Shown here piece after piece: positions 9,223 through 40,550 of a DNA stretch of 64,000 bases. The notes under the pieces were generated by a model. That model was not told where the DNA came from. It searched no databases and saw only the letters and a list, made by a program, of their open reading frames with translations. The translations under genes and the position numbers were made by a program. Origin of the DNA: Histidinibacterium lentulum (GTDB taxonomy: Bacteria > Pseudomonadota > Alphaproteobacteria > Rhodobacterales > Rhodobacteraceae); contig NZ_ML119088.1 of NCBI RefSeq assembly GCF_003789055.1, positions 158,330 through 222,329 on the forward strand, read 5' to 3'. The stretch's first letter is position 1, and each line of letters begins with the position of its first letter.

Positions 9223-9232
9223 ATTGCCACCG

Positions 9233-9541
9233 ATGGACAGGGACGACGATCAGAAGACCATGGGCCGGATCACCGGCGAGCAGGTCGAGCCGGAGGGGCG
9301 TGAGGGGCTGCTGATGCGGCTCGTCCACATGATCCTGATCGGGATCATGCTGTCCTTTGCCGGCACCGCGCTGACGATCATGGCTGTCATCCAGTTCGTG
9401 ATCATGCTGATCAACCGCGGCGAGCCGAACGAGCGGCTTGCCGAGCTGGGCACGGATCTGGGGATCTGGATGGCCAAGGCCGCCCGCTACCAGACGGCGG
9501 CGAGCGACGTGAAGCCCTGGCCCTGGACGGAGCTCGACTGA
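9233..9541 (+). CDS. Small membrane protein, DUF4389-like
   Basis: 102 residues. One or two overlapping membrane helices (LVHMILIGIMLSFAGTALTIM and AVIQFVIMLIN) are followed by a soluble tail with NERLAELGTDLGIWM. It matches the DUF4389 pattern, which has no assigned function. It begins 10 bp after the oxidoreductase stop and is probably cotranscribed. It converges with pepF, leaving only 3 bp between the stops. Confidence 0.7.
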   Translation: MDRDDDQKTMGRITGEQVEPEGREGLLMRLVHMILIGIMLSFAGTALTIMAVIQFVIMLINRGEPNERLAELGTDLGIWMAKAARYQTAASDVKPWPWTELD

Positions 9542-24185: not shown

Positions 24186-24710
24186 ATGCGTCGATCCCAC
24201 CTTCTGCTTTGTGCCGATATTGAACTCGCAAGGTTCAAGGTTCTGCGGACACGGGGGCAGCTGCCCCTCATGAGTGGCTGCGTCGATGATGCGGATTCGC
24301 GTGGAGCAACCTACAGTCTCGATGACGCCTTTCGGCTTCGCTTGCTTCTCGACGTCATTGGGCAGGATGACGACCTGCCGGCCGTCCCCCCCGCGAAAGC
24401 CGCTGGTCTAATCGACAATGCGCTGACGTGGATCGTTGGCAATGGCTTGCCGCACCCGCTGGAAGCGCGGGAAGGGCCGGACCTTTGGGTCGGGGTGGCC
24501 GTGATCGAAAGCGGGCAGTCGGATGCTCGCTACCGCTTCAGCAATTGGTTTGCGGGCAGCCTCACAGAACTCCCTGTTTTCATCGAGCGCGCCGAGTCCG
24601 AGGCGTTCGGGGATGCGGCTGTTCGGATCGTGATCGTCAATGCATCGCGCGCGGCGCGCCTTGTGCGCAAGCGGGCGCTCCGCCTCGGACTGCCTGAGGC
24701 CGAAGAATGA
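24186..24710 (+). CDS. Hypothetical satellite protein with HTH-like N-terminus, 174 residues
   Basis: The N-terminal part (RFKVLRTRGQLPL ... YSLDDAFRLRLLLDVIG) resembles the MerR-like winged helix seen in small phage regulators. The remainder is mixed alpha/beta with RIVIVNASRAARLV near the end. Function unknown. Its stop overlaps the portal start (ATGA), so it is part of the structural operon. Confidence 0.55.
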   Translation: MRRSHLLLCADIELARFKVLRTRGQLPLMSGCVDDADSRGATYSLDDAFRLRLLLDVIGQDDDLPAVPPAKAAGLIDNALTWIVGNGLPHPLEAREGPDLWVGVAVIESGQSDARYRFSNWFAGSLTELPVFIERAESEAFGDAAVRIVIVNASRAARLVRKRALRLGLPEAEE

Positions 24711-26038
24711 GCTGGCCCTTCGCCCCGTTCCAGCGCCTCGCCCGGAGGATCGCCCGCCCCACCGGCAAGCGATCCGGCATCGAGGCCGGAGCCCCCGGTC
24801 GGCGGTGGACCGGGGCTTCCACTGTCACCGACCCCCGGAATTCCACCCTCGTCGCCCGTGGCCCAGCTGCGGCCCGTGCGACTGCGGCGGTTCTGAACTC
24901 GCCCCAGGGCGCGCGCATCGAGGAAGCCTGGGCATCGGCCCTCGTGGGCAAGGGCTGGCAGGCCCGATCCCGGCATCCTGACGCGGACACCGCGCGCACC
25001 CTCTCCGCCGCCTTCGAGCTGGTGGTCGCGCAGCACCTCGTCACCCTCGCCCGCGCCGTGGTCAGAGACGGCGAGGCTTTCGCCCGCCTGCGGATCGGCC
25101 CGGACGACCGAATGCGGCTTCAGCTGATCCCGGCGGAACAGGTGGACCCCACCTTGACCCGTGACCTGGGCAACGGCGCGCGCATCGTGTCGGGCATCGA
25201 ATTCGACGCGGACGGCGAGGTTGTCGCCTATCATGTCCTTCCCGAGGCCCCGGGCACGCCTTTCACCGCCTATCTCGCCGCCGTGCGGGTGCCCGCCCGC
25301 GACATGCTCCACGTCTTCGATCCGCTGTTTCCGGGGCAGGTGAGGGGCCTGTCGTGGCTTGCGCCGGTCCTGCTGAAGATGCGCGACCGTGACGGCGCCT
25401 CCGACGCCCTGCTGATGCAGCTGAAGACCGCAAGCCTGCTTACCGGCTTTATCCGCGACCCGGACGGCACCTTCGCCGGCTTCGAAGGCGAGGCCCAGGG
25501 GAACGCGCTCAACGTGGCGCTGGAACCGGGCGCCATGCGCATCCTACCGCAAGGCGCGGACGTGACCTTCTCGACGCCCGGCTCCGGCCTCGCCCAGGCG
25601 GTGGAATTCATGCGCGCGCAGGACCGCGAGATCGCAGCGGGCGCCGGGCTGACCTATGAGCAGCTGACCGGCGACCTCTCCGAGGCGAACTATTCGAGTG
25701 CCCGCGTCGGGCTTCTCGAATTCCGCCGCCGGGCCGAGATGCTCCAGAAGACGCTGATCGAGGGGCAATTCCTCGCCCCGCTCTGGCGCCGGTGGATCGA
25801 GGTGGAGGCGCTGGCCGGACGGATCGAGGCAACGGGCGCCGCCCGTGACGATTTCATGGCCGTCCGCTTCGTCGCCCCAGGCTGGCAATGGGTAGACCCC
25901 GCGAAAGAGGTGGCCGCTGACGTGGCCGCCATCGAGGCCGGACTGAAGAGCCGGGAAGAGGTGGTCGCGGGACGTGGCCGGGACATTGACGAGCTGGACG
26001 CGGAACGCGCCCGCGATGCAGGAGGCGAAGCGGCATGA
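24707..26038 (+). CDS. Phage portal protein, lambda GpB family
   Basis: 443 residues, somewhat shorter than lambda B (533). Portal features are RLIPAEQVDP-like sequence (LQLIPAEQVDP), HVFDPLFPGQVRGLSWLAPVL and the C-terminal QLTGDLSEANYSSARVGLLEFRR, with the SS(A)R signature of this family. It forms the dodecameric ring through which DNA enters and where the connector docks. Overlaps both neighbours by 4 bp. Confidence 0.88.
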   Translation: MSWPFAPFQRLARRIARPTGKRSGIEAGAPGRRWTGASTVTDPRNSTLVARGPAAARATAAVLNSPQGARIEEAWASALVGKGWQARSRHPDADTARTLSAAFELVVAQHLVTLARAVVRDGEAFARLRIGPDDRMRLQLIPAEQVDPTLTRDLGNGARIVSGIEFDADGEVVAYHVLPEAPGTPFTAYLAAVRVPARDMLHVFDPLFPGQVRGLSWLAPVLLKMRDRDGASDALLMQLKTASLLTGFIRDPDGTFAGFEGEAQGNALNVALEPGAMRILPQGADVTFSTPGSGLAQAVEFMRAQDREIAAGAGLTYEQLTGDLSEANYSSARVGLLEFRRRAEMLQKTLIEGQFLAPLWRRWIEVEALAGRIEATGAARDDFMAVRFVAPGWQWVDPAKEVAADVAAIEAGLKSREEVVAGRGRDIDELDAERARDAGGEAA

Positions 26039-27804
26039 CGGTGCATCTTCGGGCGCTGACGACGACGCCCTCGACAGTGAACATGGAAGCCCGGACGGTG
26101 GAAGCCATCGTCTCGACCGGCGCAGACGTGGTGCGTCCCGGCTATATCGAGCGCCTCGACCCTGCGGCGGCCGAGCTGGGGCGGATGATCGGCGCCCCCG
26201 TGCTCGACGCCCACCGCACCGCCTCGACCCGAGATCAACTGGGAGTGATCGAAGCGGCCGAGCTGCGCCCCGAGGGTATCTGGGTGCGCATCCGCTTTCG
26301 CAGCAACGAAGCCGCAGGCGCCGTGCTGGCCGACATCGCGGAGGGGACGCTTCGCGGCCTGTCCATCGGCTACTCGGTGGCCGAGTGGAAAGAGCAGACC
26401 GAGAGCGGGCAGCGCGTCCGCATCGCCAAACGGTGGACGCCGCTTGAGGTGTCTGTCGTCCCTGTCCCGGCCGATCCGGGCGCACACTTCCGAGCAGGAG
26501 AAACGAGCATGGAAGCCGAAACGCAGACGGCGGGAACGACCGCCGCCACCCCCGGCGCGACCCGCGCCCAGATCAACGTTGAAATCCGCCAGCTGGCCGA
26601 GACCGCCGGCCTGACGCGCGACTGGGCGGACGAGCAGATCGACGCGGACGCCACGGTCGAAGCCGCCCGCGCTGCGGCCTTCGAGGCCATGCGGCAGCGC
26701 AGCGCCGCCCCCACCCGCACCACGCGGACGCAGATCACGGTGGATCACACCGACCCGGCGGTGATCGCCCAGCGGGCAGGGGAGGCACTCTACGCGCGGT
26801 CCCACCCGGAACACCAGCTGTCCGAGCCCGCGCGGCCCTTTGCGCACATGTCCACGCGCGACCTCGCCCAGGACTGCCTCCGCCGCGCCGGCATCCCGAC
26901 CACCGGGCTTGCCTCCGATACGATCATCACGCGGGCGCTGCACACCACGTCCGACTTCTCCCTGATCCTGGGCGATGCTGTCGGCCGCGAGCTGCGCCGC
27001 GCCTATGACGCGGCCCCCGCCGAAATCATGCGGGTCGCCCGCGAGACGACGCACCGGGACTTCCGGCCTAAGCGGGCGCTGCAATTCGGAGAAGGCACCG
27101 GCTTCGAGGAGGTTCCCGAGGGCGGCGAATTCAAGCACGGCACCTTCGGGGAGTCGGAGGAAAGCTTTGCGCTGAAGAGCTACGGGAAGATCTTCAGCAT
27201 CACGCGGCAGGCCCTCGTCAACGACGACCTGAGCGCCTTTTCCCAGGTGCCCGCGAAGCTGGGTGACGAGGCGCGGCGCTTCATGGCCGGGGCGATTGCC
27301 GCCAAGCTCGAAGCCAACCCCGCCATGGCGGACGGCGATGCTGTCTTCCACGCCAATCACGGCAACCTCGCCGGCACCGGCGCCACCCTGTCGCTGACTT
27401 CCCTGTCCGGCGCCCGCCTCGCCATGCGGCGCCAGACTGGCATCGACGGCGAGCTGATCGGCGTCACGCCCCGTTTCGTCGTGGTCTCGCCCGAACTCGA
27501 GACGACCGCAGAACAGGTTCTGGCCGAGCTGGCCGCCACCACATCCGAGAACGTGAACCCCTTCAGCTTCCTCGAGCTGGTGGTGGAGCCGCGCCTGACC
27601 GACCCCGACGCCTGGTATGTCGCCGCCGACCCCGCCCGTATCGACGGGCTGGAATACGCCTACCTCGAAGGCGCCCCCGGCCCGCAGATCGAAACCCGGC
27701 AGGGCTTCGAGGTGGACGGGGTGCAGATGAAGGCGCGCCTCGACTTCGGGTGCGGCTGGGTGGAGCACCGCGGCTGGTTCAAGAACGAAGGCCCGGCTGA
27801 GTAA
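26035..27804 (+). CDS. Prohead protease / major capsid protein fusion
   Basis: 589 residues. Residues 1-150 look like an HK97-type serine protease: APVLDAHR with the catalytic His and GTLRGLSIGYSV with the nucleophilic Ser. A linker of about 100 residues, Ala/Thr/Arg-rich and helical, may act as scaffold. Residues from about 270 on are an HK97-fold capsid protein (SDFSLILGDAVGRELRRAYD, FSITRQALVNDDLSAF, VEPRLTDPDAWYVAAD). The natural fusion would deliver protease, scaffold and shell in fixed ratio and must be cleaved to free the shell subunit. Confidence 0.88.
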   Translation: MTVHLRALTTTPSTVNMEARTVEAIVSTGADVVRPGYIERLDPAAAELGRMIGAPVLDAHRTASTRDQLGVIEAAELRPEGIWVRIRFRSNEAAGAVLADIAEGTLRGLSIGYSVAEWKEQTESGQRVRIAKRWTPLEVSVVPVPADPGAHFRAGETSMEAETQTAGTTAATPGATRAQINVEIRQLAETAGLTRDWADEQIDADATVEAARAAAFEAMRQRSAAPTRTTRTQITVDHTDPAVIAQRAGEALYARSHPEHQLSEPARPFAHMSTRDLAQDCLRRAGIPTTGLASDTIITRALHTTSDFSLILGDAVGRELRRAYDAAPAEIMRVARETTHRDFRPKRALQFGEGTGFEEVPEGGEFKHGTFGESEESFALKSYGKIFSITRQALVNDDLSAFSQVPAKLGDEARRFMAGAIAAKLEANPAMADGDAVFHANHGNLAGTGATLSLTSLSGARLAMRRQTGIDGELIGVTPRFVVVSPELETTAEQVLAELAATTSENVNPFSFLELVVEPRLTDPDAWYVAADPARIDGLEYAYLEGAPGPQIETRQGFEVDGVQMKARLDFGCGWVEHRGWFKNEGPAE

Positions 27805-28019
27805 TGGCCCTCGACCTTTCCGAGCTGGAGACCCTGCGCGATGCCCTCCTGAGGGCGCGCGCCAAGGGCGTGCGAACCGTCGGCATCGGGGACAAGCGCG
27901 TCGAATACAGCACGGACGCGGAAATGGCCGCCGCGATCGCAGACCTGGAGGCGCGCATCCGTCGCGCCTCCGCCACCCGCCCCAGCCGGATCAACTTCAC
28001 CACGAGCAAGGGCTTCTGA
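27804..28019 (+). CDS. Head-tail joining protein, lambda gpW-like
   Basis: 71 residues, the size of lambda gpW (68). LSELETLRDALLRARAKG, a short beta hairpin around DKRVEYST and a second helix AAIADLEARIRRA match the gpW alpha-beta-beta-alpha layout. It plugs the portal so that a tail can attach, which matters because the element codes for no tail. The start overlaps the capsid stop by one base (TAATG). Confidence 0.8.
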   Translation: MALDLSELETLRDALLRARAKGVRTVGIGDKRVEYSTDAEMAAAIADLEARIRRASATRPSRINFTTSKGF

Positions 28020-28020
28020 C

Positions 28021-28224
28021 ATGCCTTCGCCTGCCCCTCTCTTCGCAGACGACAAGACCGCCGCGCAGCTCTTCTGCATGAAGCCGAAGGACTTTCGCCG
28101 CCTTGTCGAAGAGGGCCATCTTCCCGGCCCGCGCGACCTTGGGGGGCTTGAGCGTTGGGACGTGGAGGAGCTGCGCCGGATCGCAAGCGGCGAGGCGATG
28201 GACAACCGGGGGATGGACTGGTGA
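28021..28224 (+). CDS. Small HTH protein, AlpA/excisionase-like
   Basis: 67 residues. AAQLFCMKPKDFRRLVEEGHLPGPRDLGGLERWDVEELRR is a MerR/AlpA-like winged helix with the final W-D-V-E-E-L strand. Directly before, and overlapping, the integrase gene it is best read as the recombination directionality factor; AlpA-type proteins also switch on satellites. One base separates it from the gpW-like gene. Confidence 0.7.
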   Translation: MPSPAPLFADDKTAAQLFCMKPKDFRRLVEEGHLPGPRDLGGLERWDVEELRRIASGEAMDNRGMDW

Positions 28225-29246
28225 GCAAGTGGGGCGGAAAGCGCTACTTGATCGAGACGAAGCCCGGTTTCGTCTACGTCCGGAAGGCCGGGAAATACCT
28301 GGGCCGCATCGAGGCGCCTTATCCCAGCGCCGAATTCGACCGCCAGTATTGGGACGTCCTGACCGGCCGCGCTGGCGAAGCCTCGACCTCATGGCGGGCG
28401 CTGATCGTGTCATATCGCAAGTCTGATCGGTGGACCCGCCTCAAGCCGCGCACCCGGCAGGATTACGAGAAGGCGCTTCTCTACATCGAGGAGAAGAATG
28501 GCGCCCGCGACATGACCCGGCTGCAACGCCGGGACGTCCTCGCCATGATGGAGAAGAACACCCACCGGACCCGGTTCGCGAACTACGTGGCACAAGTCAT
28601 GTCGGTTCTCTGCGAGCACGCTATCGACCTGGGGTGGATCAAAGCGAACCCGGTCAAGGGTGTTCGGCTCAAGAAGACCCCGACCGAGCGTGAGCAGCCG
28701 CATGTTCCCTGGACGAACGCGGCGGTGGAGCGGTGGCGGGCCGAAGCCGCCCCGCTGCCCCGACTGATCTTCGAGATCGGCGTCGGCAGCGTCCAGCGCC
28801 CAGGAGATTGGCCGGGCTTCACCTGGGGCGACTATGACGGCGAGTCCCTGAGGCTGACCCAGGGCAAGACCGGCAAGGCCCTTGCGCTTCCCTGCACCCC
28901 TGAGCTGCGCACCGCCCTTGAGGCCGCCAAGCGGGAGCTGGGCGCAGCGCCACACCCCTCGCGCCATATCCTCGCCCGGAAGGACGGGACGGCGATGCTC
29001 TATCGGGACGTGTCCCGGGTGATGCTGAAGGAGCGCAAGCGGCTGCACCTGACCGGCTTCGACCTGCATGCGCTTCGCTACCGTGGCGTGATGGAGCTGG
29101 CCTGGGCGGGCTGCGATGATGACGAGATCGCCAGCTTCAGCGGGCATTCCAGCAAGGACATGATCCGAAAGTATGCGGGCATCGCCCGGCAGATCATGCG
29201 CGCCAGCACGGCAGCCGAGAAGCGCAAGCTATGGGCATCGCTATGA
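28221..29246 (+). CDS. Tyrosine recombinase (integrase)
   Basis: 341 residues from a GTG overlapping the upstream stop (GTGA). The arm-binding N-terminus has GFVYVRKAGKYLGRIEAP, the core-binding domain is near residues 60-150. Catalytic residues are Arg in SVQRPGDW (about 192), Lys in TQGKTGKA, His-x-x-Arg in LHALRYRG, His in FSGHSSKD and the Tyr nucleophile in IRKYAG (about 317). It inserts the element into tRNA-Cys. It lies at the right end and reads toward attR, 82 bp away. Confidence 0.92.
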   Translation: MSKWGGKRYLIETKPGFVYVRKAGKYLGRIEAPYPSAEFDRQYWDVLTGRAGEASTSWRALIVSYRKSDRWTRLKPRTRQDYEKALLYIEEKNGARDMTRLQRRDVLAMMEKNTHRTRFANYVAQVMSVLCEHAIDLGWIKANPVKGVRLKKTPTEREQPHVPWTNAAVERWRAEAAPLPRLIFEIGVGSVQRPGDWPGFTWGDYDGESLRLTQGKTGKALALPCTPELRTALEAAKRELGAAPHPSRHILARKDGTAMLYRDVSRVMLKERKRLHLTGFDLHALRYRGVMELAWAGCDDDEIASFSGHSSKDMIRKYAGIARQIMRASTAAEKRKLWASL

Positions 29247-29247
29247 A

Positions 29248-29267
29248 CAGAACAAGCACAGAACAAG
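29248..29267 (+). repeat. Direct repeat CAGAACAAG, candidate excisionase sites
   Basis: CAGAACAAG occurs at 29248-29256 and 29259-29267, 11 bp apart, one helical turn, directly after the integrase stop. Spacing like this is common for Xis binding sites. Confidence 0.35.
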
Positions 29268-29270
29268 AAC

Positions 29271-29291
29271 CTGATAACCGGACTGATAACC
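29271..29291 (+). repeat. Candidate integrase arm sites, right side
   Basis: CTGATAAC occurs at 29271-29278 and 29283-29290, 12 bp apart, 38 bp before attR. The same word flanks attL. Confidence 0.45.
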
Positions 29292-29328
29292 CCTTGCAGC
29301 CCTCCGCCCGGTTCTCTAAGGAAACAAG

Positions 29329-29374
29329 GGCTCTGGCGAGTTGGCGGAGTGGTTACGCAGCGGATTGCAAATCC
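29329..29374 (+). repeat. attR: 46-bp direct repeat
   Basis: Identical to 19175-19220. Here it is continuous with the 3' half of tRNA-Cys, so the intact tRNA gene is rebuilt at the right end. Confidence 0.9.
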
Positions 29375-29408
29375 GTGTACACCGGTTCGATTCCGGTACT
29401 CGCCTCCA
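29335..29408 (+). tRNA. tRNA-Cys (anticodon GCA)
   Basis: 74 nt with encoded CCA. The acceptor stem GGCGAGT pairs with ACTCGCC, the anticodon loop is TTGCAAA, and the T arm ACCGG-TTCGATT-CCGGT is perfect. Its first 40 bases and upstream DNA belong to the integrated element, so transcription now depends on an element sequence. TTGCAG (29294-29299) is the only -35-like hexamer nearby and the -10 is poor. Confidence 0.95.
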
Positions 29409-30919: not shown

Positions 30920-31906
30920 CTACAGGATCGCGGGCTCGGCCATGAAGGCGCGGGCGTTCTCGATGATCCGGAGACCCGTTTCCGAGAGCTGTCCCGACTC
31001 GCGGATCACCGCATCGCCCGCCGCGAAGTTGCGGCGGTCGGCGGCGGCGGCCTCCTCCGCGGCGATGCGTTCCTCGGGGGTGAGCACGCCCGAGGCGGCA
31101 AGCCGCTCCATCGCCCAGGCCATGCGGGCCGAGACGAAGGTCGCGTGATAGATGCCGTCCATCGGCCGGGGATCGGCCCGGAGCGGTGACTTGAAGCGCT
31201 CCTCGTCGGGATTCAGCGTCAGGGGCTCGTGGATCGTGAGGCCGAAGAGCAGCGAGTGACCGGCCTCGTGGGCCAGAACCTCGGCCACGGCGACGGGCGT
31301 CTTGTGGAAGGTCGGGTTGAGCAGCAGCAGGCCCCAGAACTGGTAGTGCGAGGCGCCGTCGAACTGCATCGTGGCGCCTTCGGGGGCCTGAGCGAGGAGC
31401 ACCACCCGGACCAACTGCCGGATCTCGGCATGGAGATCGGGAGTCCCGCGCTCGAGCAGGTCGAGACCCCGTGTCAGGCGCCCGGCGAACTCGGCGCGCA
31501 TCTCCTCGGTGATTGGGGCAAAGCTGCCGGCCCCGTCGCCCATGCGCGTGTCGAAACAGTGGTCGATCCGCGCGGCCTCTTCGGAGCCGCGGGCGAGGAC
31601 GGGCATCCCGGCCGGACGGCGGTCGATGGCGGCGATCACCTCCGCGATCTCCGCGGCGCGGTCGATGTCTCCGGTGGTTGCCCGTTCCACCAGCTCGTAA
31701 TAGGCGCCGAACGCCTCGGGCGGCAGGCGGTCTCCGGCTTCGATCCGGTGGACGGCCCGTTTCAGCGGGCCACAGAGGTCGGGCAATTCCGCCGCAGCCT
31801 CGGCGACATGCCCGAGGCTGCTGGCAAGTTCGTCATGCATCCGGTCGTCGAGGCGGGTTGCCCGCGCCCCGCTCGGTGCGAAGACGAGCAGATCGCTGTC
31901 GGTCAT
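30920..31906 (-). CDS. HExxH protein resembling alpha-ketoglutarate-dependent peptide beta-hydroxylases
   Basis: 328 residues. The motif LAHEAGHSLLFG puts HExxH at residues 213-217, preceded by HYQFWGLLLLNPTFHKTPVAVAEV and followed by GIYHATFVSARMAWAMERL, where His254 could be the third metal ligand. This layout matches the HExxH-motif family (TIGR04267 type) now described as Fe/alpha-ketoglutarate enzymes that hydroxylate beta carbons in RiPP precursors, not proteases. Its ATG overlaps the stop of the last precursor gene by 4 bp, and all six precursor genes lie directly upstream on the same strand. That context makes peptide hydroxylation the best hypothesis. Confidence 0.75.
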   Translation of the reverse strand: MTDSDLLVFAPSGARATRLDDRMHDELASSLGHVAEAAAELPDLCGPLKRAVHRIEAGDRLPPEAFGAYYELVERATTGDIDRAAEIAEVIAAIDRRPAGMPVLARGSEEAARIDHCFDTRMGDGAGSFAPITEEMRAEFAGRLTRGLDLLERGTPDLHAEIRQLVRVVLLAQAPEGATMQFDGASHYQFWGLLLLNPTFHKTPVAVAEVLAHEAGHSLLFGLTIHEPLTLNPDEERFKSPLRADPRPMDGIYHATFVSARMAWAMERLAASGVLTPEERIAAEEAAAADRRNFAAGDAVIRESGQLSETGLRIIENARAFMAEPAIL

Positions 31907-32022
31907 GCCGGGAGCTGGATGTCCAGGCCTTTCCGGCCTTCCTTGTTGCCGATCTTGGCGCCGGCGGCGCTGTCGATGCGGAAGCCGAGAAGCTTCGAAT
32001 GGTCTAGGGTCAATCCGGTCAT
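31903..32022 (-). CDS. RiPP precursor peptide 1 (39 residues)
   Basis: Leader LDHSKLLGFRI at residues 6-16, then DSAAG, the core motif AKIGNKEGRKG (22-32) and tail LDIQLPA. AAAGG lies 8 bp before the ATG, inside the end of precursor 2. The stop overlaps the hydroxylase start (ATGA), which couples substrate and enzyme. It is the closest relative of precursor 2 in the array. Confidence 0.75.
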   Translation of the reverse strand: MTGLTLDHSKLLGFRIDSAAGAKIGNKEGRKGLDIQLPA

Positions 32023-32026
32023 GACG

Positions 32027-32149
32027 TTACCTTTCGATGGGTCCGTTGTCGTTGCCCTTCATCCCGGGCTTGTTTCCGATCTTGACGCCCGCGGCGCTGT
32101 CGATCCGGAAGCCGAGAAGTCGGGAGTAATCGAGAGCAAGTCTGGTCAT
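32027..32149 (-). CDS. RiPP precursor peptide 2 (40 residues)
   Basis: Leader LDYSRLLGFRI at 6-16, then DSAAG, core motif VKIGNKPGMKG (22-32) and tail NDNGPIER. Nearly identical to precursor 1 up to residue 26, then divergent, as expected for a duplicated leader with a changing product region. The ribosome site is weak. Only 4 bp separate it from precursor 1. Confidence 0.75.
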   Translation of the reverse strand: MTRLALDYSRLLGFRIDSAAGVKIGNKPGMKGNDNGPIER

Positions 32150-32194
32150 CTGAACACCGTGCAAGGAGAGAGACGCGTCTCGGTCGAAAGAGTA

Positions 32195-32377
32195 TCAGAA
32201 GCCGCCCGGCGGCGGTCCGCCCTTGATGCCCACGGTGATCAGGCCCTTGCCGCCCATCTTGAGGCCGGTCGACGTTGCTTCGGTCGCGCCCTGTTTGAGG
32301 CCGGTGAAGGCCGACTCCGCCGATCCCTCGAGGCGGAAGCCCAGCAGTCTCGAGTGGTCCAGTTTCGTGAGGTCCAT
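32195..32377 (-). CDS. RiPP precursor peptide 3 (60 residues, long core)
   Basis: Leader LDHSRLLGFRL at 6-16. The region after it is longer than in the others: TGLK occurs at 25-28 and again at 37-40, the second continuing as KMGGKG (40-45). The tail LITVGIKGGPPPGGF has no acidic residue. The duplicated TGLK block suggests an internal core duplication. Ribosome site weak (AGGA). Confidence 0.75.
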   Translation of the reverse strand: MDLTKLDHSRLLGFRLEGSAESAFTGLKQGATEATSTGLKMGGKGLITVGIKGGPPPGGF

Positions 32378-32528
32378 GATGTGCGTCCTGGTTGCCGTCA
32401 GAATTTCAGTGGTTGCCGGAAGAGCCTGCCCATGACCACGACCGGAAGAGTACGCTGGTTCCAGTGATCAGGAACGCAGCGTCATCGTCAAGCCTGTCCT
32501 TCGGGCAGAAGACTGTCCGGGAACCGGC

Positions 32529-32669
32529 TCATTGGGGGAGGATCGGCGGCCCCAGCGGGATCTCTATGATGCCCTTGTCGCCCTTCTTGAGGCCCGTGGT
32601 CTCGGCGGCCGCCGTGCCTTGCAGGCGGAAGCCGAGCAGCTTGGTCAGGTCCAGTGTCGTGCCGTCCAT
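32529..32669 (-). CDS. RiPP precursor peptide 4 (46 residues)
   Basis: Leader LDLTKLLGFRL at 6-16, core TTGLKKGDKG at 24-33, hydrophobic proline-rich tail IIEIPLGPPILPQ. GAGGAG lies 6 bp before the ATG, a strong ribosome site. Core motif identical to precursor 5, tail entirely different. The two are separated by 130 bp without a gene. Confidence 0.75.
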   Translation of the reverse strand: MDGTTLDLTKLLGFRLQGTAAAETTGLKKGDKGIIEIPLGPPILPQ

Positions 32670-32799
32670 CGAATGCTCCTCGATGTGGGTGGGTCGGATG
32701 GGTCGTCTGGGGGGCGCTCACGCCAAAGCGCGCGGTCCCGGCGTATCTGATGCCCGTCGCGACAGCCGTTCATGAGGCCTGCCGCGACGGACGAGTGTG

Positions 32800-32934
32800 T
32801 CACCTGATCTCGAAGGTGACCGGCGGGGGCTGATTCCCCTTGTCGCCCTTCTTGAGGCCCGTGGTCTCGGCACCCGCCGTGTCCTGCAGGCGAAAGCCGA
32901 GAAGCTTGGTGTGGTCCAGTTTCGTGAAATCCAT
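32800..32934 (-). CDS. RiPP precursor peptide 5 (44 residues)
   Basis: Leader LDHTKLLGFRL at 6-16, core TTGLKKGDKG at 24-33, tail NQPPPVTFEIR. GGAG lies 8 bp before the ATG at 32934; the in-frame reading back to 33006 runs through the ribosome site and is not used. Follows precursor 6 by 68 bp. Confidence 0.75.
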   Translation of the reverse strand: MDFTKLDHTKLLGFRLQDTAGAETTGLKKGDKGNQPPPVTFEIR

Positions 32935-33002
32935 GCGTCGTCTCCAGCCTCTCTGTCCGACCGGCCCGTAAGGACCGGCCCTGCGCCATGCGTCGCCCGG
33001 GA

Positions 33003-33137
33003 TCACCTGACGGTCTGACCGGGGTCCTTCAGCACGCCGTTGTCATAGCCCTTGTCGCCGACCTTTGCGTCGGTGGCGGCAGGGCTCGCGAGACGGAAGC
33101 CGAGAAGCTGCCTGAGGTCGAGATTAACGATTTCCAT
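33003..33137 (-). CDS. RiPP precursor peptide 6 (44 residues), first in the operon
   Basis: Leader LDLRQLLGFRL at 6-16, core motif AKVGDKG at 24-30, tail YDNGVLKDPGQTVR. GGAG lies 9 bp before the ATG. It is the most divergent member in residues 1-5 and 17-24. Its start is 32 bp from the ATP-grasp start on the other strand, so promoters of the two units must overlap coding sequence. Confidence 0.75.
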   Translation of the reverse strand: MEIVNLDLRQLLGFRLASPAATDAKVGDKGYDNGVLKDPGQTVR

Positions 33138-33169
33138 GGGACAAACGCTCCATCTATACCGGCACCGTG

Positions 33170-34168
33170 ATGAAGCCGATGACCCTCGCCCCCGTCAAGC
33201 GCCGCGTGATCCATTTCGTGACACTGCGCGAACACGGATACACCTTTGCCAATGCCATGGAGGCGCTGGATGCGCGCGGGGTGCATGCCGTCCATGTGCC
33301 CTGGGATACGGTCTTCGCCAGCGAGACGCTGGCGCACGGGACCTGGGTGCTCGCGGATTTCGAGCGGCTCCCGCCGGGCGCGCTCGTCGCCGCGGGCAAG
33401 GTCTATCGGGCGTTGAAGGCGGCCGGGTGCCGGGTGCTCAACGATCCGGCGCGGTGGCTGCCGCGGGCGGACCTGATGCGCGCCCTCGAGGTCGAGGGGG
33501 TGAACTCCTACAGATGCTGGCGCCCGGCGGTGCAGGAGTGGCCTGACCGCTGGCCCGTGTTCCTGCGGCGTGCAAGCGGCCATACCGGGGCGGCGAGCGG
33601 TCTGCTCGGGAACCTCGACGAAGCCCGCGCGGCGCTGGAAGCGGCGCTCGACGAGGGCCTGCCGATCTCGGACCTGATCTTCGTCGAATACGCGGCCGAG
33701 CCGGTGCCGGGCCGGACGTATTTCCGCAAGTCCGCCGCCTTCCGCGTGGGGCCGCAGGTGCTCCGGGCCATCTCGGTGCACGGGGACGACTGGCTTCTGA
33801 AGCGCGGAACCTCCGAGCACGCGACCGAGTCCGACTATGCCGAGGAACGGGCCGAGATGACCGTTTATCCCCACGAGGATTTCGTCTGGAAGGTCTTCGA
33901 GATCGCCGGAGTGGAGTTCGGGCGCGTCGATTTCGGCCTGCGCGCCGGGCGTCTCGAGGTCTGGGAGGTCAACACGGCGCCGAACGTACGTCCGCCCTAC
34001 GAGCACGCCAATCCCGACCGCACCGAGACGGTGCGCCTCGCATTCGAAGGTCTGGTCACGGCGCTTCATGGTCTCGCCCGCACGCCCGGGGAGCCGGTCT
34101 CCATCGCGGGCGCCTTCCGGAGGCATCGCGCGAAGGGCACCGGGCACGCGATGCTGCATCACCTGTGA
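33170..34168 (+). CDS. ATP-grasp ligase 1 of the RiPP locus
   Basis: 332 residues, same fold and length as the next gene. The end has GRVDFGLRAGRLEVWEVNTAPN; the E-x-N of EVNTAPN (about residue 265) is the Mg-binding signature of ATP-grasp enzymes, and VFLRRASGHTG about residue 137 is a candidate phosphate loop. ATP-grasp enzymes activate a carboxylate as acyl phosphate and join it to an amine, thiol or alcohol. In RiPP loci they make ester/amide cross-links (graspetides) or extend peptides. No clear ribosome site: GTG at 33167 and ATG at 33170 or 33179 are all possible, and a TATACC box ends 7 bp before 33167, so a leaderless message is conceivable. Confidence 0.75.
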   Translation: MKPMTLAPVKRRVIHFVTLREHGYTFANAMEALDARGVHAVHVPWDTVFASETLAHGTWVLADFERLPPGALVAAGKVYRALKAAGCRVLNDPARWLPRADLMRALEVEGVNSYRCWRPAVQEWPDRWPVFLRRASGHTGAASGLLGNLDEARAALEAALDEGLPISDLIFVEYAAEPVPGRTYFRKSAAFRVGPQVLRAISVHGDDWLLKRGTSEHATESDYAEERAEMTVYPHEDFVWKVFEIAGVEFGRVDFGLRAGRLEVWEVNTAPNVRPPYEHANPDRTETVRLAFEGLVTALHGLARTPGEPVSIAGAFRRHRAKGTGHAMLHHL

Positions 34169-34277
34169 CGAGGGGCGTTGCATCCGCGTCCGGGCTCCGC
34201 CTGCCCGGGGGTGCCGGTCCGCAGGACGGGGCCGGGACGGATGCCGTTCGTCCTGGCGCGAGCGGAGGCTGAGCGAG

Positions 34278-35288
34278 ATGGCCGGCATCATGCGCCCCAT
34301 GAGGCTCGACCCGGTGAGCCGCCGCGCGATTTATTTCGTGACCCTGCGCGAGCATGGCTACACCTTCGCGCATGTCATCCGGGCGCTCGAGAGCCGCGGC
34401 GTTCATGCCCGGCATGTGCCCTGGGACACGGTCTTCGCCAGCGAGACCCTCGCGCATGGAACCTGGGTGCTCTCGGATTTCGAGCGCCTTCCGCCGGGGG
34501 CGCTGATGGCCGCGGGCAAGGTCCATCGTGCGTTGAAGGCGGCCGGGTGCCGCGTGCTCAACGATCCGGCGCGCTGGCTGCCGCGGGCGGATTTCCTGCG
34601 CAACCTGCAGCTTGCGGGGGTGAACAGCTTCGGGTGCTGGCGGCCGGCCGCGCGGGAATGGCCCGACCGCTGGCCGGTCTTCCTGCGCCGGGCCAGCGGG
34701 CACACCGGTAGCCGGACCGAACTCCTGGAGACGCCCGAGGCGGCGAGGGCGGCGCTGACCGAAGCGCTCGACGAGGGCCTGCCGCTGAGCGATCTCCTGT
34801 TTGTCGAATACGCGGGCGAGCCGGTTCCGGGTCAGACCTATTTCCGCAAGCACGCGGCCTTTCGCATCGGCCCGGAGGTGAGCCGCGAGGTCTCGGTGAA
34901 CGACACGACCTGGCTGGCCAAGGTCGGAGTCTCGGGGCTCGCCACCGATGAAGACTATGCCGCCGAGCGGGCCGAGATGGACGCCTATCCGCACGAGGAT
35001 TTCGTCTGGAAGGTCTTCGAGATCGTCGGACTGGAGTACGGCCGCGTCGATTTCGGCACGCGGGCCGAGCGGTTCGAGGTCTGGGAGGTGAACTCCAACC
35101 CCACGCTCTATGCCCCCCACGAGCACCGCAATGCCGACCGCGCCGAGACGATCCGCCTGTCCTTCGAGCGGCTGGTGACGGCGTTCTGGGGTCTCGCCCG
35201 GACACCCGGGGAGCCCGTATCGATCAAGGAGTGCTTCCGTCGCTACCGGTCGGAAGAGACCGGGATGGTGGCCCTGAGCAACCGGTGA
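34278..35288 (+). CDS. ATP-grasp ligase 2 of the RiPP locus
   Basis: 336 residues, clearly a paralogue of ligase 1: shared blocks include FVTLREHGYTFA, HVPWDTVFASETLAHGTWVL, ALKAAGCRVLNDPARWLPRA and YPHEDFVWKVFEI. The metal signature is EVWEVNSNPTL (about residue 271). It differs from ligase 1 in the region after HTG and in the last 40 residues, so the two may act on different precursors, act in sequence or form a heterodimer. A GGAGG site precedes the ATG. 109 bp separate the two genes. Confidence 0.75.
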   Translation: MAGIMRPMRLDPVSRRAIYFVTLREHGYTFAHVIRALESRGVHARHVPWDTVFASETLAHGTWVLSDFERLPPGALMAAGKVHRALKAAGCRVLNDPARWLPRADFLRNLQLAGVNSFGCWRPAAREWPDRWPVFLRRASGHTGSRTELLETPEAARAALTEALDEGLPLSDLLFVEYAGEPVPGQTYFRKHAAFRIGPEVSREVSVNDTTWLAKVGVSGLATDEDYAAERAEMDAYPHEDFVWKVFEIVGLEYGRVDFGTRAERFEVWEVNSNPTLYAPHEHRNADRAETIRLSFERLVTAFWGLARTPGEPVSIKECFRRYRSEETGMVALSNR

Positions 35289-35453: not shown

Positions 35454-38400
35454 TCAGCCGTAGACAAGCTCGGGGAGGATCACCTCCCAGGTCTTCCGCC
35501 GATAGTGGTGGCTGAAGGCCTCGTCTCCGTCTTCGGCCCGCCATTCGAGGATCATCGCGATCTCGCCCCGGGCGAACTGCATGCGCCCGGGAGGGCAGAA
35601 GTTGCGGGACATGCGGCCGAGAACACTGCCGGACTGGTCCTCAAGCACCCAGCGGTCCCTCTCGCGGCGGAGCGAGACCGGATCGCCGACCTGCGCCTGG
35701 GAGATGGCGGCGAGCGATCCGTGGCCGTGGGCGAGCCGTCCGGCAAAGGAAAGGTCCACGAGCTTCGGGTCGGGGGAAACGTACCGCACGCGGGCGCCGC
35801 GCAGGACGGATGATCCGGAGGTCACCCGCCGGTTGAGGATCGACGGATGCGGTGTCGGCACAATCGGGTGATGTCCTGAAGTCAGCAGCGTCAGGCTGGT
35901 CCTCGCGCGGGTCATGGCGACGTAGAAGAGACGGCGCGGCGCGTCGGCGTCCTCGCCTCGGGAAGTCCGGTCCCAGCCGCCGTCCAGGATTGCCACATGG
36001 TCGAATTCGAGGCCCTTGGCGCGGTGCGCCGTCAGGAGGAGCAGTCCGCGCTGTTCGGCCCGCGCCTCTCGCGCCCATTCGCCGAACCATTCCACCAGTT
36101 CGGGCACTGGTGCTGCCTTTTCCGAAAGCTCGCGGGCGAGGGTCCCGATGCCTTCGCCGATGAGGTCGGTCCAGCGGGAGACGGGCAGGGCGTTCAACGC
36201 GAGGGTCAGGTCGGCGATCGTCATCATGCGGGTCCGGTCTGCGAGCAGCGCGCGCACGAAGGCCTGCATCTCGCGCAGTCGCCAGATGCTCGGCAGGGCG
36301 TCGCTGGCGAGTTCGACGGGAAGTCCCTTCTCCTCGGCATAGGCGCGCACGGGCTCCAGCCTGCGCCATTCCCGCGCGATGATCGCGGTGCGGCGCCACT
36401 GCCAATCAGGATCGAGGCGGCTGAGCCGGATCAGCTCGTCCACGGCGGCCGCGGCCTGCGCCTCGTCGCCCGGGGGACAGGTCAGCAGGGAGACCCGGCC
36501 TTGCGCCACGGGGTCGTGGGCAGCCATCGCGCCTCCGAGGTTGGCCCTGCTGCGGGCGCGGTCGGGGGTGATGTCGTGATCGGCCTTCATCCGGCTGACC
36601 GCGGGCGCGATCACGCTGTTGGAGGCCGCGATGATATAGGCGGTGGAGCGGTAGTTCTCGGTCAGGAACACCGGCCGGGCGGCGTAGTCGGTCTCGAAGC
36701 GGCGGATGTACTCGATGGAGGCTCCGTTGAAGGCGTAGATGTTCTGGTCGTCGTCGCCCACGGCGAAGAGGCTGAGACGCAGGTCGGGATCCTCGAGCGA
36801 GCGGCCTGCCACGGCGGCGATGAGATCGTATTCCTCGGGTCCAATGTCCTGGTATTCGTCGACGAGGATCCAGCGGTAGCCCTGGATCAGCGTGTCGCGC
36901 AGCGCTTCGGCCTCGGATTTCGACAGACCGTCGCCGCGCAGGAGCCGGATCGCCTCGCGCATGATCCCGTCGAAGTCGCGCGCGCCGTCCTGCAGGCCGG
37001 CGAAGCTTGCGCCCACAAGGCGCATGGCAAGCGCGTGGCAGGTCGAGACCGTGACGAGGGTGGCGTCCTTGCCGATCAGGAGGCGCAGGCGTTCGCGGAT
37101 CTGGGCGGCCGCGTGCCGGTTGTAGGAGAGCACGAGGATGCCGCGGGGGTCCTCGCGGCGCACGCGCACGAGATAGGCGATGCGGTGGACGAGGACGCGT
37201 GTCTTGCCCGATCCCGGGCCCGCGAGGACGAGCACGTTCGTCTGCTCCCGGTCGTCGCGGACGATCTGTTCCTGCACCGGGTTGCCCAAGGCCTCCACGA
37301 TGGCCTTCCACGACGCGCCGGTGGTCTGACGGCGCAGCTCCGTGCCGCGGCCGGGAAGCCAGCGGCGCAGAAAGGTGTCGCGGTCGAGGACGAAATAGTC
37401 CGCCGAAAGTCTCAGTGCATCGGAGATGTTCTGAAGGCCCCTTTCGGCATAGGCGCTCATCACATGGGTCTGGATCGTCTGCTCGGCATAATGCTCTTCG
37501 AGCGGCTGGAAGTTCTCGACGGTGAAGAGACCGCCTTTCGTGTCCAGTCTGACGGTCATCGCGGGGCGAAAGACCGTGAGGCCGCGGCCGAGGGTGGCCA
37601 CGCCCTGTTCGTGCAGCCACAGGAGGGCGCGGTCCATGAGGCGGTTCATGTCGCGGACCTGCGTGCCGAGAAACGCGTCGCCCTTGAGTGCCGCGAGCAT
37701 GTTGCCGAGGGTCGTCTGGACCTGGAGGTCCTTTCCCTTCGTGCCCCTCGGCACACGCCCGACGAGATGGGAGAGCAGCAGCTGGGCGCCCTCGCGCCTC
37801 AGCCTGGCGGTCCCGTCGACGACCTCCCACGAGCGTTGCAGGCGGACCCAGAGGATATTCCGGTTGGCCTTGCGCAGGTTCAGGTTCCCGCGTCCGCCGT
37901 CCTGATCGCGGCCGTCCTGGGCCATGCCGCGCAGCAGGCCCTCGACGATATCGGGGCGGATCGCGCTGTGGCCCTTCTCGCGCAGCATCTGGCAGGTTTC
38001 GGCAAGGTGCAGAGGGAGGGCTTCGTCGCCATAGGCATCGGGCGCCGTCTCCCGCAGGAGGGCGATCAGATCCTCCTCGAGCCGGGCGGCGAGGTCGAAG
38101 CGGCGTTGCGAGCTGTCCTCGACGGACACGTGCACGAAGACGGTGACGGCCGTGTCGTCGCTGGCGATGCCCAGCGCCTCGAGATCGGTCAGAGCCCGGC
38201 GCAGCGCCGACCCGGTGAGGCGGCACGCGCCGGTCAGCTCGTCGGTGGAAATGCCGCGGTCGGGCTCGGCGTTCATGACGTGCCGCACGAGGTCAAGGAG
38301 GTCGCGGCGGCGCGCGCCGGTGATCGCGGCGCGATCGAGGATCTTCGCCGCCTCGTCGAGGGTCCGGATGCGCAGCGAGGACGGGAAGAGCTGGACCCTG

Positions 38401-40550
38401 TTCTCCTCGCGGGTCAGGAGCCTGGCCTCCTCCAGCCAGGCGACGGCGGTCTTCACGCGGGTGTCGTCGGTGGCGCTGTCGCGTTCGAATTCCTGGTCCT
38501 TTTCCTCTCGGACGATCTCTCCGGGCGTGACCACGACCTCGCCACTCTTCTTAGTGCGGCCGTCGAGGCGGCGGAGCGCCTTCAGGATCGCGCCGATCTC
38601 GTGCCGGGCGAGGCGGGAGCGGGCGGAGAGGCTGAATTGCCGCTCGACGTCGTCGGGGCTGAACAGAAGCACGCAATTGGCGGGGGCGCGGTCGCGGCCG
38701 GCGCGGCCGGCCTCCTGGAGATAGTTCTCGAGCGATCCCGGGATATCGCCGTGGACGACGAGGCGGATATCGGGCTTGTCGATCCCCATGCCGAAGGCGT
38801 TGGTCGCGGCTATGATCCGCAGGTCGCCGGTCCGGAACCGTTCCTGTATCTCGCTTTTCTCGTCCGGCGGCAGGCCGGCGTGGAACCTCTCGGCGGCCAG
38901 CCCCCGGGCCTTCAGGAATTCCGCGACCCGTTCCGTGGCGCGTCGGGTGGCGCAGTAGATCACGGCGCCCGAAACGCCCTCCTCGGGCAGGTTGGCCTCG
39001 ATCGCCGTCAGGATGTCCGCAAGCTTCGTCTGACTGTCGGTGGGCAGGACCTCGAAGCTGAGGTTGGTGCGGCTGGCCCCGCCGTCGAGCAGGATCAGCT
39101 CCACCCCGAGCCGGGTCGAGAAGTGATCGCGGATATCGCGCACGACCTCGGGTTTCGCGGTGGCGGTCAGGCAGAGCACGGGGGGAGGGTCGCGGTCTCC
39201 CAGCGACTCGCGGATGAAGCGGCTGACATAGCGGTAGTCGGGGCGGAAATCGTGGCCCCATTTGGAGACGCAATGGGCCTCGTCCAGCACCCAGAGCCCC
39301 ACCTCGCGCTGCGCGAGGACCGAGCGCACGGAGATGGCGCGCAACTGTTCGGGCGCGATCAGCAAGATCGACGCGTCGCCCATCCGCACCTTCTCGAGCG
39401 CGTCATGGCGTTCGGGCAGCGACAGCATGCCGTTCACCGTCACGGCGGAGGAAATGCCGGCCCGCGCGAGCCCCTGCACCTGGTCGGCCATCAGTGCGAC
39501 GAGGGGCGAGATCACGACGGTCAGCCCGCCCGTCCGCTCGAAGGTGGTGAGCGCGGGGATCTGGTAGCAGACGGACTTCCCCGTCCCGGTCGGCAGGATG
39601 CCGAGAACGCTCTGGCCCGACATCGCCTCGGCGACGATGCGCTCCTGCATCGGGCGCCCGGTCTCGTCCGCCGGTTCGGGCCGGAAGGCGGGAAAGCCGA
39701 ACCAGCGCGTGAGGGCGCTGGCGGGATCGGTCATCTCGGCGCACCAGGCACAGGCCGGGTCGCCGCAGGACGCGCCGCCCCGCAGGTCGCGGACAAGCTG
39801 CGAGGCCTCGGCGAACTGCGCCCTGACCCAGGGCGGCATGACCGACTCGCCGCCCGCCACGGTGATCCAGGAGAGCGCATAGGCCAGCGGCCAGCCGAGC
39901 TGCGGGTTGCCCAGCCGGTCCAGGGTCCGGTCCAGCATGTCCTTGCAGGATTGCCCTGCCAGAAGACGCCGGATCGCGGCCTCGGTCTCCGCGATGCCCG
40001 GTGCGGGGGCCGAGCGCAGGAGCTTGAAGACGTCGTCGAACCCGGCCGAGGCCTCCGCGCGGGTGGTCAGGTAGTGGTAGGCGGTCAGCGCGTCCGGTCT
40101 CTCCCGCGCCAGCGTCTCGAACGCGTCGACCTGGTTGCGGAAGACCTCGAAGACGAGCCGTGCGTCGAGTTCGGGGTCGTTCACATGCCCGGCCTGAAGC
40201 CGCCCGTCCACATGGTGCTTGACGAGGTGGTGGTAGGGGTTGCGCGGAAAGGCGAGGGGGTTGAGCCAGAGCGTGTCGATGGCCGCCTCGGCGAGGCTAG
40301 CGAGGCGTGGTCTGTTCGCCACGAGATGCGGCAGGTCATGGCGCAGGATGTTGTGGCCGATGACGTGATCGGCCCCGGCGCAGAACCGGTCGAGCTGTTC
40401 GAGGGCCTCGCCGAGAGAGCCCTTGCCGTGGACCAGTGCCGGGCCGCCTTCGCCCCTGACCGCTGCGAAGGCGAAGATCCGCGCCGTCGCTGGGTTCACC
40501 TCCAGATCGACGGAGACGCAACGGTCAAGAAATCCGGAAGGGATTGGCAA
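35454..40550 (-). CDS. Exonuclease - RecQ helicase - UvrD helicase fusion
   Basis: 1698 residues. Residues 1-170: DEDD-type 3'-5' exonuclease-like domain (SVDLEV, GHNILRHDLPHL). A Cys cluster follows (CGDPACAWC, about 268). RecQ-type SF2 helicase: LGILPTGTGKSVCYQIPAL (about 320), DEAHCVSKWGHDFRPDY (about 425) and ATNAFGMGIDKPDI. Then RQC/HRDC-like helical parts. UvrD-type SF1 helicase from about 1100: VLAGPGSGKTRVLVHRI, ILVDEYQDIGPEEYDL and LLTAHRAKGLEFDHVAILDGGW. It would unwind and trim DNA ends or recombination intermediates; a defence role is possible. The start must be the TTG at 40550: a stop lies 10 codons upstream and the exonuclease DxE starts at residue 15. Confidence 0.85.
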   Translation of the reverse strand: MPIPSGFLDRCVSVDLEVNPATARIFAFAAVRGEGGPALVHGKGSLGEALEQLDRFCAGADHVIGHNILRHDLPHLVANRPRLASLAEAAIDTLWLNPLAFPRNPYHHLVKHHVDGRLQAGHVNDPELDARLVFEVFRNQVDAFETLARERPDALTAYHYLTTRAEASAGFDDVFKLLRSAPAPGIAETEAAIRRLLAGQSCKDMLDRTLDRLGNPQLGWPLAYALSWITVAGGESVMPPWVRAQFAEASQLVRDLRGGASCGDPACAWCAEMTDPASALTRWFGFPAFRPEPADETGRPMQERIVAEAMSGQSVLGILPTGTGKSVCYQIPALTTFERTGGLTVVISPLVALMADQVQGLARAGISSAVTVNGMLSLPERHDALEKVRMGDASILLIAPEQLRAISVRSVLAQREVGLWVLDEAHCVSKWGHDFRPDYRYVSRFIRESLGDRDPPPVLCLTATAKPEVVRDIRDHFSTRLGVELILLDGGASRTNLSFEVLPTDSQTKLADILTAIEANLPEEGVSGAVIYCATRRATERVAEFLKARGLAAERFHAGLPPDEKSEIQERFRTGDLRIIAATNAFGMGIDKPDIRLVVHGDIPGSLENYLQEAGRAGRDRAPANCVLLFSPDDVERQFSLSARSRLARHEIGAILKALRRLDGRTKKSGEVVVTPGEIVREEKDQEFERDSATDDTRVKTAVAWLEEARLLTREENRVQLFPSSLRIRTLDEAAKILDRAAITGARRRDLLDLVRHVMNAEPDRGISTDELTGACRLTGSALRRALTDLEALGIASDDTAVTVFVHVSVEDSSQRRFDLAARLEEDLIALLRETAPDAYGDEALPLHLAETCQMLREKGHSAIRPDIVEGLLRGMAQDGRDQDGGRGNLNLRKANRNILWVRLQRSWEVVDGTARLRREGAQLLLSHLVGRVPRGTKGKDLQVQTTLGNMLAALKGDAFLGTQVRDMNRLMDRALLWLHEQGVATLGRGLTVFRPAMTVRLDTKGGLFTVENFQPLEEHYAEQTIQTHVMSAYAERGLQNISDALRLSADYFVLDRDTFLRRWLPGRGTELRRQTTGASWKAIVEALGNPVQEQIVRDDREQTNVLVLAGPGSGKTRVLVHRIAYLVRVRREDPRGILVLSYNRHAAAQIRERLRLLIGKDATLVTVSTCHALAMRLVGASFAGLQDGARDFDGIMREAIRLLRGDGLSKSEAEALRDTLIQGYRWILVDEYQDIGPEEYDLIAAVAGRSLEDPDLRLSLFAVGDDDQNIYAFNGASIEYIRRFETDYAARPVFLTENYRSTAYIIAASNSVIAPAVSRMKADHDITPDRARSRANLGGAMAAHDPVAQGRVSLLTCPPGDEAQAAAAVDELIRLSRLDPDWQWRRTAIIAREWRRLEPVRAYAEEKGLPVELASDALPSIWRLREMQAFVRALLADRTRMMTIADLTLALNALPVSRWTDLIGEGIGTLARELSEKAAPVPELVEWFGEWAREARAEQRGLLLLTAHRAKGLEFDHVAILDGGWDRTSRGEDADAPRRLFYVAMTRARTSLTLLTSGHHPIVPTPHPSILNRRVTSGSSVLRGARVRYVSPDPKLVDLSFAGRLAHGHGSLAAISQAQVGDPVSLRRERDRWVLEDQSGSVLGRMSRNFCPPGRMQFARGEIAMILEWRAEDGDEAFSHHYRRKTWEVILPELVYG

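Follow-up and report, generated by a model that had tools for sequence, protein, structure and literature searches.

A Probable Peptide-Modifying System Pairing Lysine-Rich Repeat Precursors with a Predicted HExxH Hydroxylase and ATP-Dependent Ligases of Exchangeable Type

Introduction

The 64,000-nucleotide stretch of the Histidinibacterium lentulum genome considered here (contig NZ_ML119088.1, positions 158,330 to 222,329; hereafter the window) carries at 30920..35288 six small genes, a gene for an HExxH-type enzyme and two genes for ATP-grasp ligases, which the first-pass annotation had taken for a probable system making ribosomally synthesized and post-translationally modified peptides (RiPPs). 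Comparative evidence upholds that reading. At 54 loci retrieved by a pattern scan with an HExxH alignment (one genome per species, ~85,000 species), an open reading frame (ORF) with the same leader is present at 48, and an ATP-grasp gene accompanies the HExxH gene at all 53 loci where the latter is uncut. We regard it as almost certain that the genes form a genuine peptide-modifying system, and as very probable that both kinds of enzyme act on the peptides. The chemistry that we propose, in which the HExxH enzyme would hydroxylate K-x-G sites of the precursor core and the ATP-grasp ligase would join a free acid to the lysine amine, is advanced with slightly less than even confidence. The result is the definition of a compact three-part family, composed of a precursor, an HExxH enzyme and an exchangeable carboxylate-activating enzyme.

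Results

The genes of the window locus are arranged as follows:

33003..33137, minus strand: W1, precursor 1, 44 aa; leader NLDLRQLLGFRL, core with AKVGDKG; leader-matrix score 30.4
32800..32934, minus strand: W2, precursor 2, 44 aa; leader KLDHTKLLGFRL, core with GLKKGDKG; leader-matrix score 40.6
32529..32669, minus strand: W3, precursor 3, 46 aa; core with GLKKGDKG; leader-matrix score 35.9
32195..32377, minus strand: W4, precursor 4, 60 aa; three KxG sites (GLKQGA, GLKMGGKG, GIKGG); leader-matrix score 31.6
32027..32149, minus strand: W5, precursor 5, 40 aa; core GVKIGNKPGMKG; leader-matrix score 27.0
31903..32022, minus strand: W6, precursor 6, 39 aa; core GAKIGNKEGRKG; leader-matrix score 37.0
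30920..31906, minus strand: aKG-HExxH-type (alpha-ketoglutarate-dependent) peptide hydroxylase family protein, 328 aa; HExxH at residues 213-217
33167..34168, plus strand: ATP-grasp ligase 1, 333 aa; GTG at 33167, ATG at 33170
34278..35288, plus strand: ATP-grasp ligase 2, 336 aa; 71% identical to ligase 1

The first-pass annotation had described this layout correctly in most respects. All six small ORFs were found, with ATG starts and an xLDxxxLLGFR motif in each (the consensus common to W1-W6 being LDxx(K/R/Q)LLGFR); W6 and the HExxH gene share 4 bp, and the two paralogous ligase genes lie on the opposed strand, with 32 bp between the start of W1 (33137) and the ATG of ligase 1 (33170). Its KxGxK core motif stood in part: KxG sites are present, one to three in each window core, and not as one fixed motif at a fixed distance. 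The assignment of the HExxH protein to the TIGR04267 type is borne out by a score of 112 bits (cut-off 40). The protein keeps its HExxH motif and has a ChlB-HExxH-like fold, its structure model resembling the hydroxylase domain of ChlB, and membership of this HExxH family makes it a predicted peptide hydroxylase. Neither window ligase matched any Pfam or NCBIfam model above cut-off, and the small ATP-grasp proteins tested matched no Pfam model above cut-off either; against NCBIfam at E≤10, ligase 1 found no family, ligase 2 found rimK_fam alone and weakly (11.5 bits, cut-off 143.4), and no graspetide ligase model was matched by the two. The structure model of ligase 1 (predicted local distance difference test, pLDDT, 90) shows the RimK/LysX ATP-grasp fold, with the Mg-binding D, E and N residues in place. 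RimK and LysX ligate amino acids to proteins.

The precursors are recognized by their leader. A leader matrix stripped of its window rows ranks W1-W6 first in the window, at 27.0-40.6, with the next site at 8.3; in 20 windows with shuffled bases no site scores above 16.1. Over 78 stretches (1.86 million frame positions), the leader exceeds 13 bits at 63 sites near HExxH genes and at three elsewhere, a count that is partly circular, since the matrix drew six of its 39 seed blocks from the window and the other 33 from loci scanned afterwards, and that includes among the 63 six second copies of named loci (L026-L028 and L030-L032, absent from the 54). Two of the three matches elsewhere are precursors beyond the distance filter. 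At the 48 named HExxH loci with a leader-bearing ORF the leader scores at least 17 bits, and of the 57 precursors whose HExxH gene could be placed, 56 lie no more than 1 kb upstream of it. The small ORFs were also kept at the protein level in relatives, as the first-pass annotation had asked of them: a protein search with 16 precursors as queries yielded 796 clustered proteins at E≤1, and among the 120 matches listed every name shown is "hypothetical" or "uncharacterized." The precursors matched no NCBIfam model. Point estimates of the nonsynonymous rate fall below those of the synonymous rate in 15 of 15 window precursor pairs (37-44 codons, without significance test). Two of the 120 proteins listed, P0204 and P0213, read leader-core-leader-core within one ORF, as if two precursors had been fused in tandem.

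In 394 genomes sampled from the family of the window's host, the ATP-grasp protein is found in 16 (E≤1e-20) and the HExxH protein in 15 (E≤1e-10); an ATP-grasp gene adjoins one such HExxH gene in eight of eight genomes with an HExxH match at E≤1e-60, and an HExxH gene adjoins the ATP-grasp gene in eight of the nine genomes with an ATP-grasp match at E≤1e-50, G319 being the exception. A class-level search at E≤1e-30 found five of 385 genomes, the host's own included, the others being G730, which is the genome of locus L087, and those of loci L127, L128 and L129. The 54 loci were selected on HExxH, and co-occurrence in the reverse direction, from the ATP-grasp gene, was examined in one family; an earlier scan with the ATP-grasp protein alone gave 21 pattern matches, none of which was confirmed. 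Carriers of the 54 loci are mostly alpha-, beta-, and gammaproteobacteria, together with one assembly labelled Verrucomicrobiota and one labelled Planctomycetota; Vannielia litorea and Actibacterium pelagium are examples of carriers in culture. The ATP-grasp and HExxH genes are at most 500 bp apart in 50 of the 53 loci; farther ligases occur in L091 (1.5 kb) and L097 (5.5 kb), and the ligase gene is cut by the contig end in L071 and L109. The single locus of the 54 with no ligase is L120, where a contig end truncates the HExxH gene. A wide occurrence of the enzymes without such peptides, which the first-pass annotation had named as grounds for rejection, is the opposite of what the leader-bearing ORFs at these HExxH-branch loci indicate. 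ATP-grasp genes without an HExxH gene do occur (L034-L037 and L039-L041, 29-33% identity); they look like a separate branch, and by eye their neighbours concern transport and glycosyl transfer.

Beyond the two enzymes little recurs. Gene-family clustering over 65 stretches placed HExxH in 53 and ATP-grasp in 35, and the next widest family, in 10 stretches, looks by eye like ABC-transporter ATPases, so that a transporter partner is possible. No recurring protease family was seen beside the genes in the same clustering, judged by eye only. In several Rhodobacterales (L077, at 9028-9453, L079, L085 and L086) a gene resembling acpS, again by eye, comes immediately after the HExxH gene or no more than ~1.2 kb beyond it, so that the system occupies one chromosomal site there. 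In L087 (6637-10200) one HExxH gene lies between two small ATP-grasp genes, with a small ORF carrying LSLKEGK/LGAKVGK beside one ligase and a small ORF with a leader-like LELDRKKLL beside the other.

The precursor cores show a regular spacing of lysines. The set analyzed comprises 63 precursors with leader scores of at least 17, drawn from the 48 named loci, five unnamed loci and the window; below or outside it are L087 (12.9), L062 and L065 (both just under 17), L117-L119, L064, L066, L127, L094 and L120 (the latter pair at contig ends), and in L033 the first ORF of its two. Lysines four residues apart occur 180 times in these cores, against 41 ± 6 in shuffled cores. KxG is present in 62 of the 63 and KxGxK in 53, and within the K-xxx-K tetrads the +2 position is Gly in 179 of 180, the +1 position is mostly V, I or L, and the +3 position is free. 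The same Gly is found in 453 of 467 tetrads from 119 of the 120 further proteins listed, which had been chosen with the family's own profile. Lysine is preferred over arginine at a ratio of 4.06 in the cores and 1.98 in the leaders, compared with 0.18 in the HExxH proteins and 0.27 in the small ATP-grasp proteins of the same loci, at a G+C content of ~62%. The tetrad register and the K/R bias therefore mark Lys and Gly as the constrained residues, and the C-terminal residues vary, by eye, across the cores.

The constancy of the +2 Gly lends itself to another reading, in which oxidation of that Gly at its alpha-carbon by the HExxH enzyme breaks the chain into short, C-terminally amidated Lys peptides, which the ATP-grasp enzyme modifies or rejoins. 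Such a route would account for the absence of a recurring protease, and it has a precedent in PosC and PflC, which are reported to cut at a small residue, Ala and Gly being inferred there to favour alpha-hydroxylation (PMC12636437). The same study has them cutting at one motif towards the C-terminus only and beta-hydroxylating elsewhere (PMC12636437), and in the present cores Lys, for which this route has no need, is as constant as Gly. We consider backbone cleavage at Gly unlikely.

The overall composition of the 63 cores is 13.5% Lys, 6.5% Asp+Glu and 0.3% Cys; Asp and Glu are both missing from five of them (L075, L078, L089, L113, L116) and from the cores of 11 of the 119 further proteins, and 38 of the 63 have fewer acids than KxG sites. 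In the acid-free peptides a lactam or lactone could therefore draw only on the acids of the leader and on the C-terminus. This weakens the reading of the system as a graspetide, in which the ATP-grasp enzyme would form side-chain lactams or lactones between Asp or Glu and core Lys, Ser or Thr, and together with the lack of any graspetide model match for the window ligases it makes that reading quite improbable. A LysW-type carrier was likewise considered and set aside: LysW is an acidic, zinc-binding carrier protein, and the cores are rich in Lys and poor in acids and Cys.

The ligase is of more than one type. Small ATP-grasp proteins of RimK/LysX fold are found at 43 of the 53 loci with an uncut HExxH gene and cyanophycin-synthetase-like (CphA-like) ligases of 580-700 aa at the other 10, no locus having both. 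The CphA-like ligases scanned (L061, L098, L101, L104) score 224-240 bits, below the cyanophycin synthetase cut-off of 877, with matches that cover the front of the model and end at ~450-570 of some 870 positions; the L098 ligase matches the CphA1 structure at 1.1e-47. Profiles of the small and CphA-like ligases show no detectable alignment (hhalign probability 0.2%). A quick tree of the HExxH proteins (67 rows, 12 of them in the CphA-like state) implies four changes of that state, at least three of them forced by starred branches, and the K-x-G core is present with either ligase type. A third type appears among nine further HExxH loci (L060, L062-L066, L127-L129), four of which (L063-L066) have an AMP-binding enzyme directly after the HExxH gene (PF00501, 79-100 bits). 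L062 has an apparently similar gene, L063 also encodes a phosphopantetheine carrier, as does the vicinity of L062, and small ORFs of L062, L064 and L065 carry one AAKVG each and read KLLSLKVPAAGAAKVGD or near it. In L101 one protein is an AMP-binding enzyme fused to a CphA-like ATP-grasp, and L127 combines an HExxH gene and a CphA-like ligase with a small K/G-rich ORF that is without the usual leader. The small ATP-grasp, CphA-like and AMP-binding classes all activate carboxylates with ATP. Four CphA-like ATP-grasp ORFs lie near one HExxH gene in L061 (6808-19000), the last of them cut by the end of the stretch.

These exchanges bear on two further readings. In the first, amino acids are added to the peptide C-terminus and the HExxH enzyme then oxidizes the added or adjoining residues. 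This is the usual polarity of RimK, LysX and CphA, but the residues kept in the cores are Lys and Gly, not those of the variable C-termini, and the AMP-binding enzymes that stand in at some distant loci belong to a family that normally activates free acids rather than peptide ends; we judge C-terminal addition rather unlikely. In the second, the peptides are not substrates but cationic Lys/Gly-rich molecules, nucleic-acid-binding or antimicrobial, whose genes happen to accompany those of the enzymes. Their high Lys content would fit, yet the leader adjoins most HExxH genes of the scan, the lysines keep a four-residue register and Arg is avoided in loci of ~62% G+C, and the ligase type has changed repeatedly while precursor and HExxH were kept, all of which makes a role as bystanders very improbable.

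Further copies exist in the host's own genome. A second precursor and HExxH pair is found on contig C3 (L059, HExxH 56% identical); its nearest relative in the tree, L067 of Pacificoceanicola onchidii, has a ligase, and a window ligase could be a candidate partner of L059 in trans. A third, distant HExxH gene lies on contig C1 (L060), and a distant third ATP-grasp paralogue, without HExxH nearby, on contig C2 (75948-76799, L034, 33% identity).

Around the window locus, a phage integrase gene (PF00589, 28155-29246) ends just ahead of a tRNA-Cys gene (29335-29408), and ORFs that look by eye portal- and capsid-like lie upstream of it at 24707-27804, so that 24707-29408 is probably a prophage adjoining the peptide locus. 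On the other side, a 1698-aa ORF (35454-40550) has PADLOC matches to DpdF-type helicase models over its central part and to GajB/UvrD-type models towards the C-terminus, and its N-terminus has, by eye, the look of a DnaQ-type exonuclease. A defence-system reading of the peptide locus was dropped, the HExxH and ATP-grasp proteins having no match in PADLOC.

Discussion

In the mechanism that we propose, the common leader LDxx(K/R/Q)LLGFR would be bound by both kinds of enzyme. The Fe/alpha-ketoglutarate HExxH enzyme would hydroxylate the K-x-G sites of the core, most likely at the Lys beta-carbon, and the ATP-grasp ligase would couple the side-chain amine of the lysine to a free carboxylic acid that it activates, probably an amino acid; the order of the steps, the residue modified and the nature of the acid are all part of the proposal. 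A free acid on the lysine amines is suggested because Lys is kept and Arg avoided, because core acids are not needed, and because the partner enzymes activate carboxylates. The two ATP-grasp paralogues of the window may each serve some of the six precursors, or may differ in the acid that they add. Since no recurring protease family was seen, removal of the leader, if any, would fall to enzymes encoded by distant genes.

Several observations weigh against this chemistry. RimK, LysX and CphA activate a carboxylate of the peptide or protein and take a free amino acid as the nucleophile, which is the reverse polarity. The constancy of Gly equals that of Lys, so that oxidation could fall on Gly, and small residues favour alpha-hydroxylation and backbone cleavage, as inferred by the authors of the PosC/PflC study (PMC12636437). 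The leaders, too, prefer Lys to Arg, so that the Lys bias is partly not core-specific, and the window cores have three to four acidic residues each, which would permit cross-links there. No acid-supplying gene recurs at the loci. In G319 a small ATP-grasp gene occurs with an HExxH gene neither nearby nor anywhere in the genome at E≤1e-10 (genome 88% complete), and L059 has no ATP-grasp gene within ~9 kb. Among the nine further HExxH loci, no K-x-G ORF was seen at L066, only SKRG at L063, and none of the three ligase types at L060, L128 and L129; our confidence was lowered slightly because of these last three.

A wider interpretation, held more tentatively than the chemistry itself, is that of a "lysine comb" class of RiPPs, in which the K-x-G-x repeats would be oxidized by the HExxH enzyme and would receive a free acid at one lysine after another from any of three interchangeable ATP-dependent enzymes. 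It is equally tentative that these are the RimK-like ATP-grasp, the CphA-like ATP-grasp and an AMP-forming adenylation enzyme, with the decoration set by whichever enzyme is plugged in. If true, the system would parallel cyanophycin and other polymers with decorated side chains, but with a template encoded in a gene. It is unusual for carboxylate-activating enzymes to be swapped repeatedly while the precursor type and the HExxH enzyme stay the same, and this yields a sharp prediction of the modified residue; if the lysines are acylated in register, the leader and the K-x-G-x comb would provide a tool for attaching groups of choice at intervals along a peptide.

HExxH enzymes and ATP-grasp ligases that act on RiPPs are each already known; the likely novelty lies in the precursors as a family, in the pairing and in the exchange of ligases. 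The first-pass annotation knew of no named class with this gene set, and in keyword searches of the open literature, which leave subscription papers mostly uncovered, we likewise found none, nor any paper joining HExxH, ATP-grasp and such precursors. The closest relatives on the HExxH side are aKG-HExxH enzymes. For the beta-hydroxylase of ChlB/ChlH (PDB 8s5f; PMC12636437), the differences are that the recurring partner here is an ATP-grasp ligase and that the precursor family is another one. PflC and PosC of Pseudomonas (PMC12636437) and PesO of the nitrilobacillins (PMC13060819) likewise act on RiPP precursors, the former making several hydroxylations in a row; their partners are an MNIO-nitroreductase with a GNAT protein, or an MNIO with an asparagine-synthetase-like protein, and their precursors carry ARMD or R(V/T)DN motifs, as opposed to the K-x-G-x combs described here (PMC12636437; PMC13060819).

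On the ligase side, RimK and LysX/ArgX act on a protein C-terminus or on the LysW carrier, unlike the present ligases, whose partners are a small basic repeat peptide and an oxygenase. Graspetides need core carboxylates as reaction partners, and the system described here departs from them in its acid-free cores and in ligases that match no graspetide model. The graspetide clusters of corallotide (CorB/CorC) and SmaO/SmaX nonetheless resemble it in placing an ATP-grasp ligase and an oxygenase beside small precursors, corallotide sharing with it the repeated Lys motifs (PMC13097080). Cyanophycin synthetase, lastly, is matched over the front part of its models by the second ligase type, found at 10 of the 53 loci; unlike it, the CphA-like ligases score below its cut-off and sit beside HExxH genes and comb peptides.

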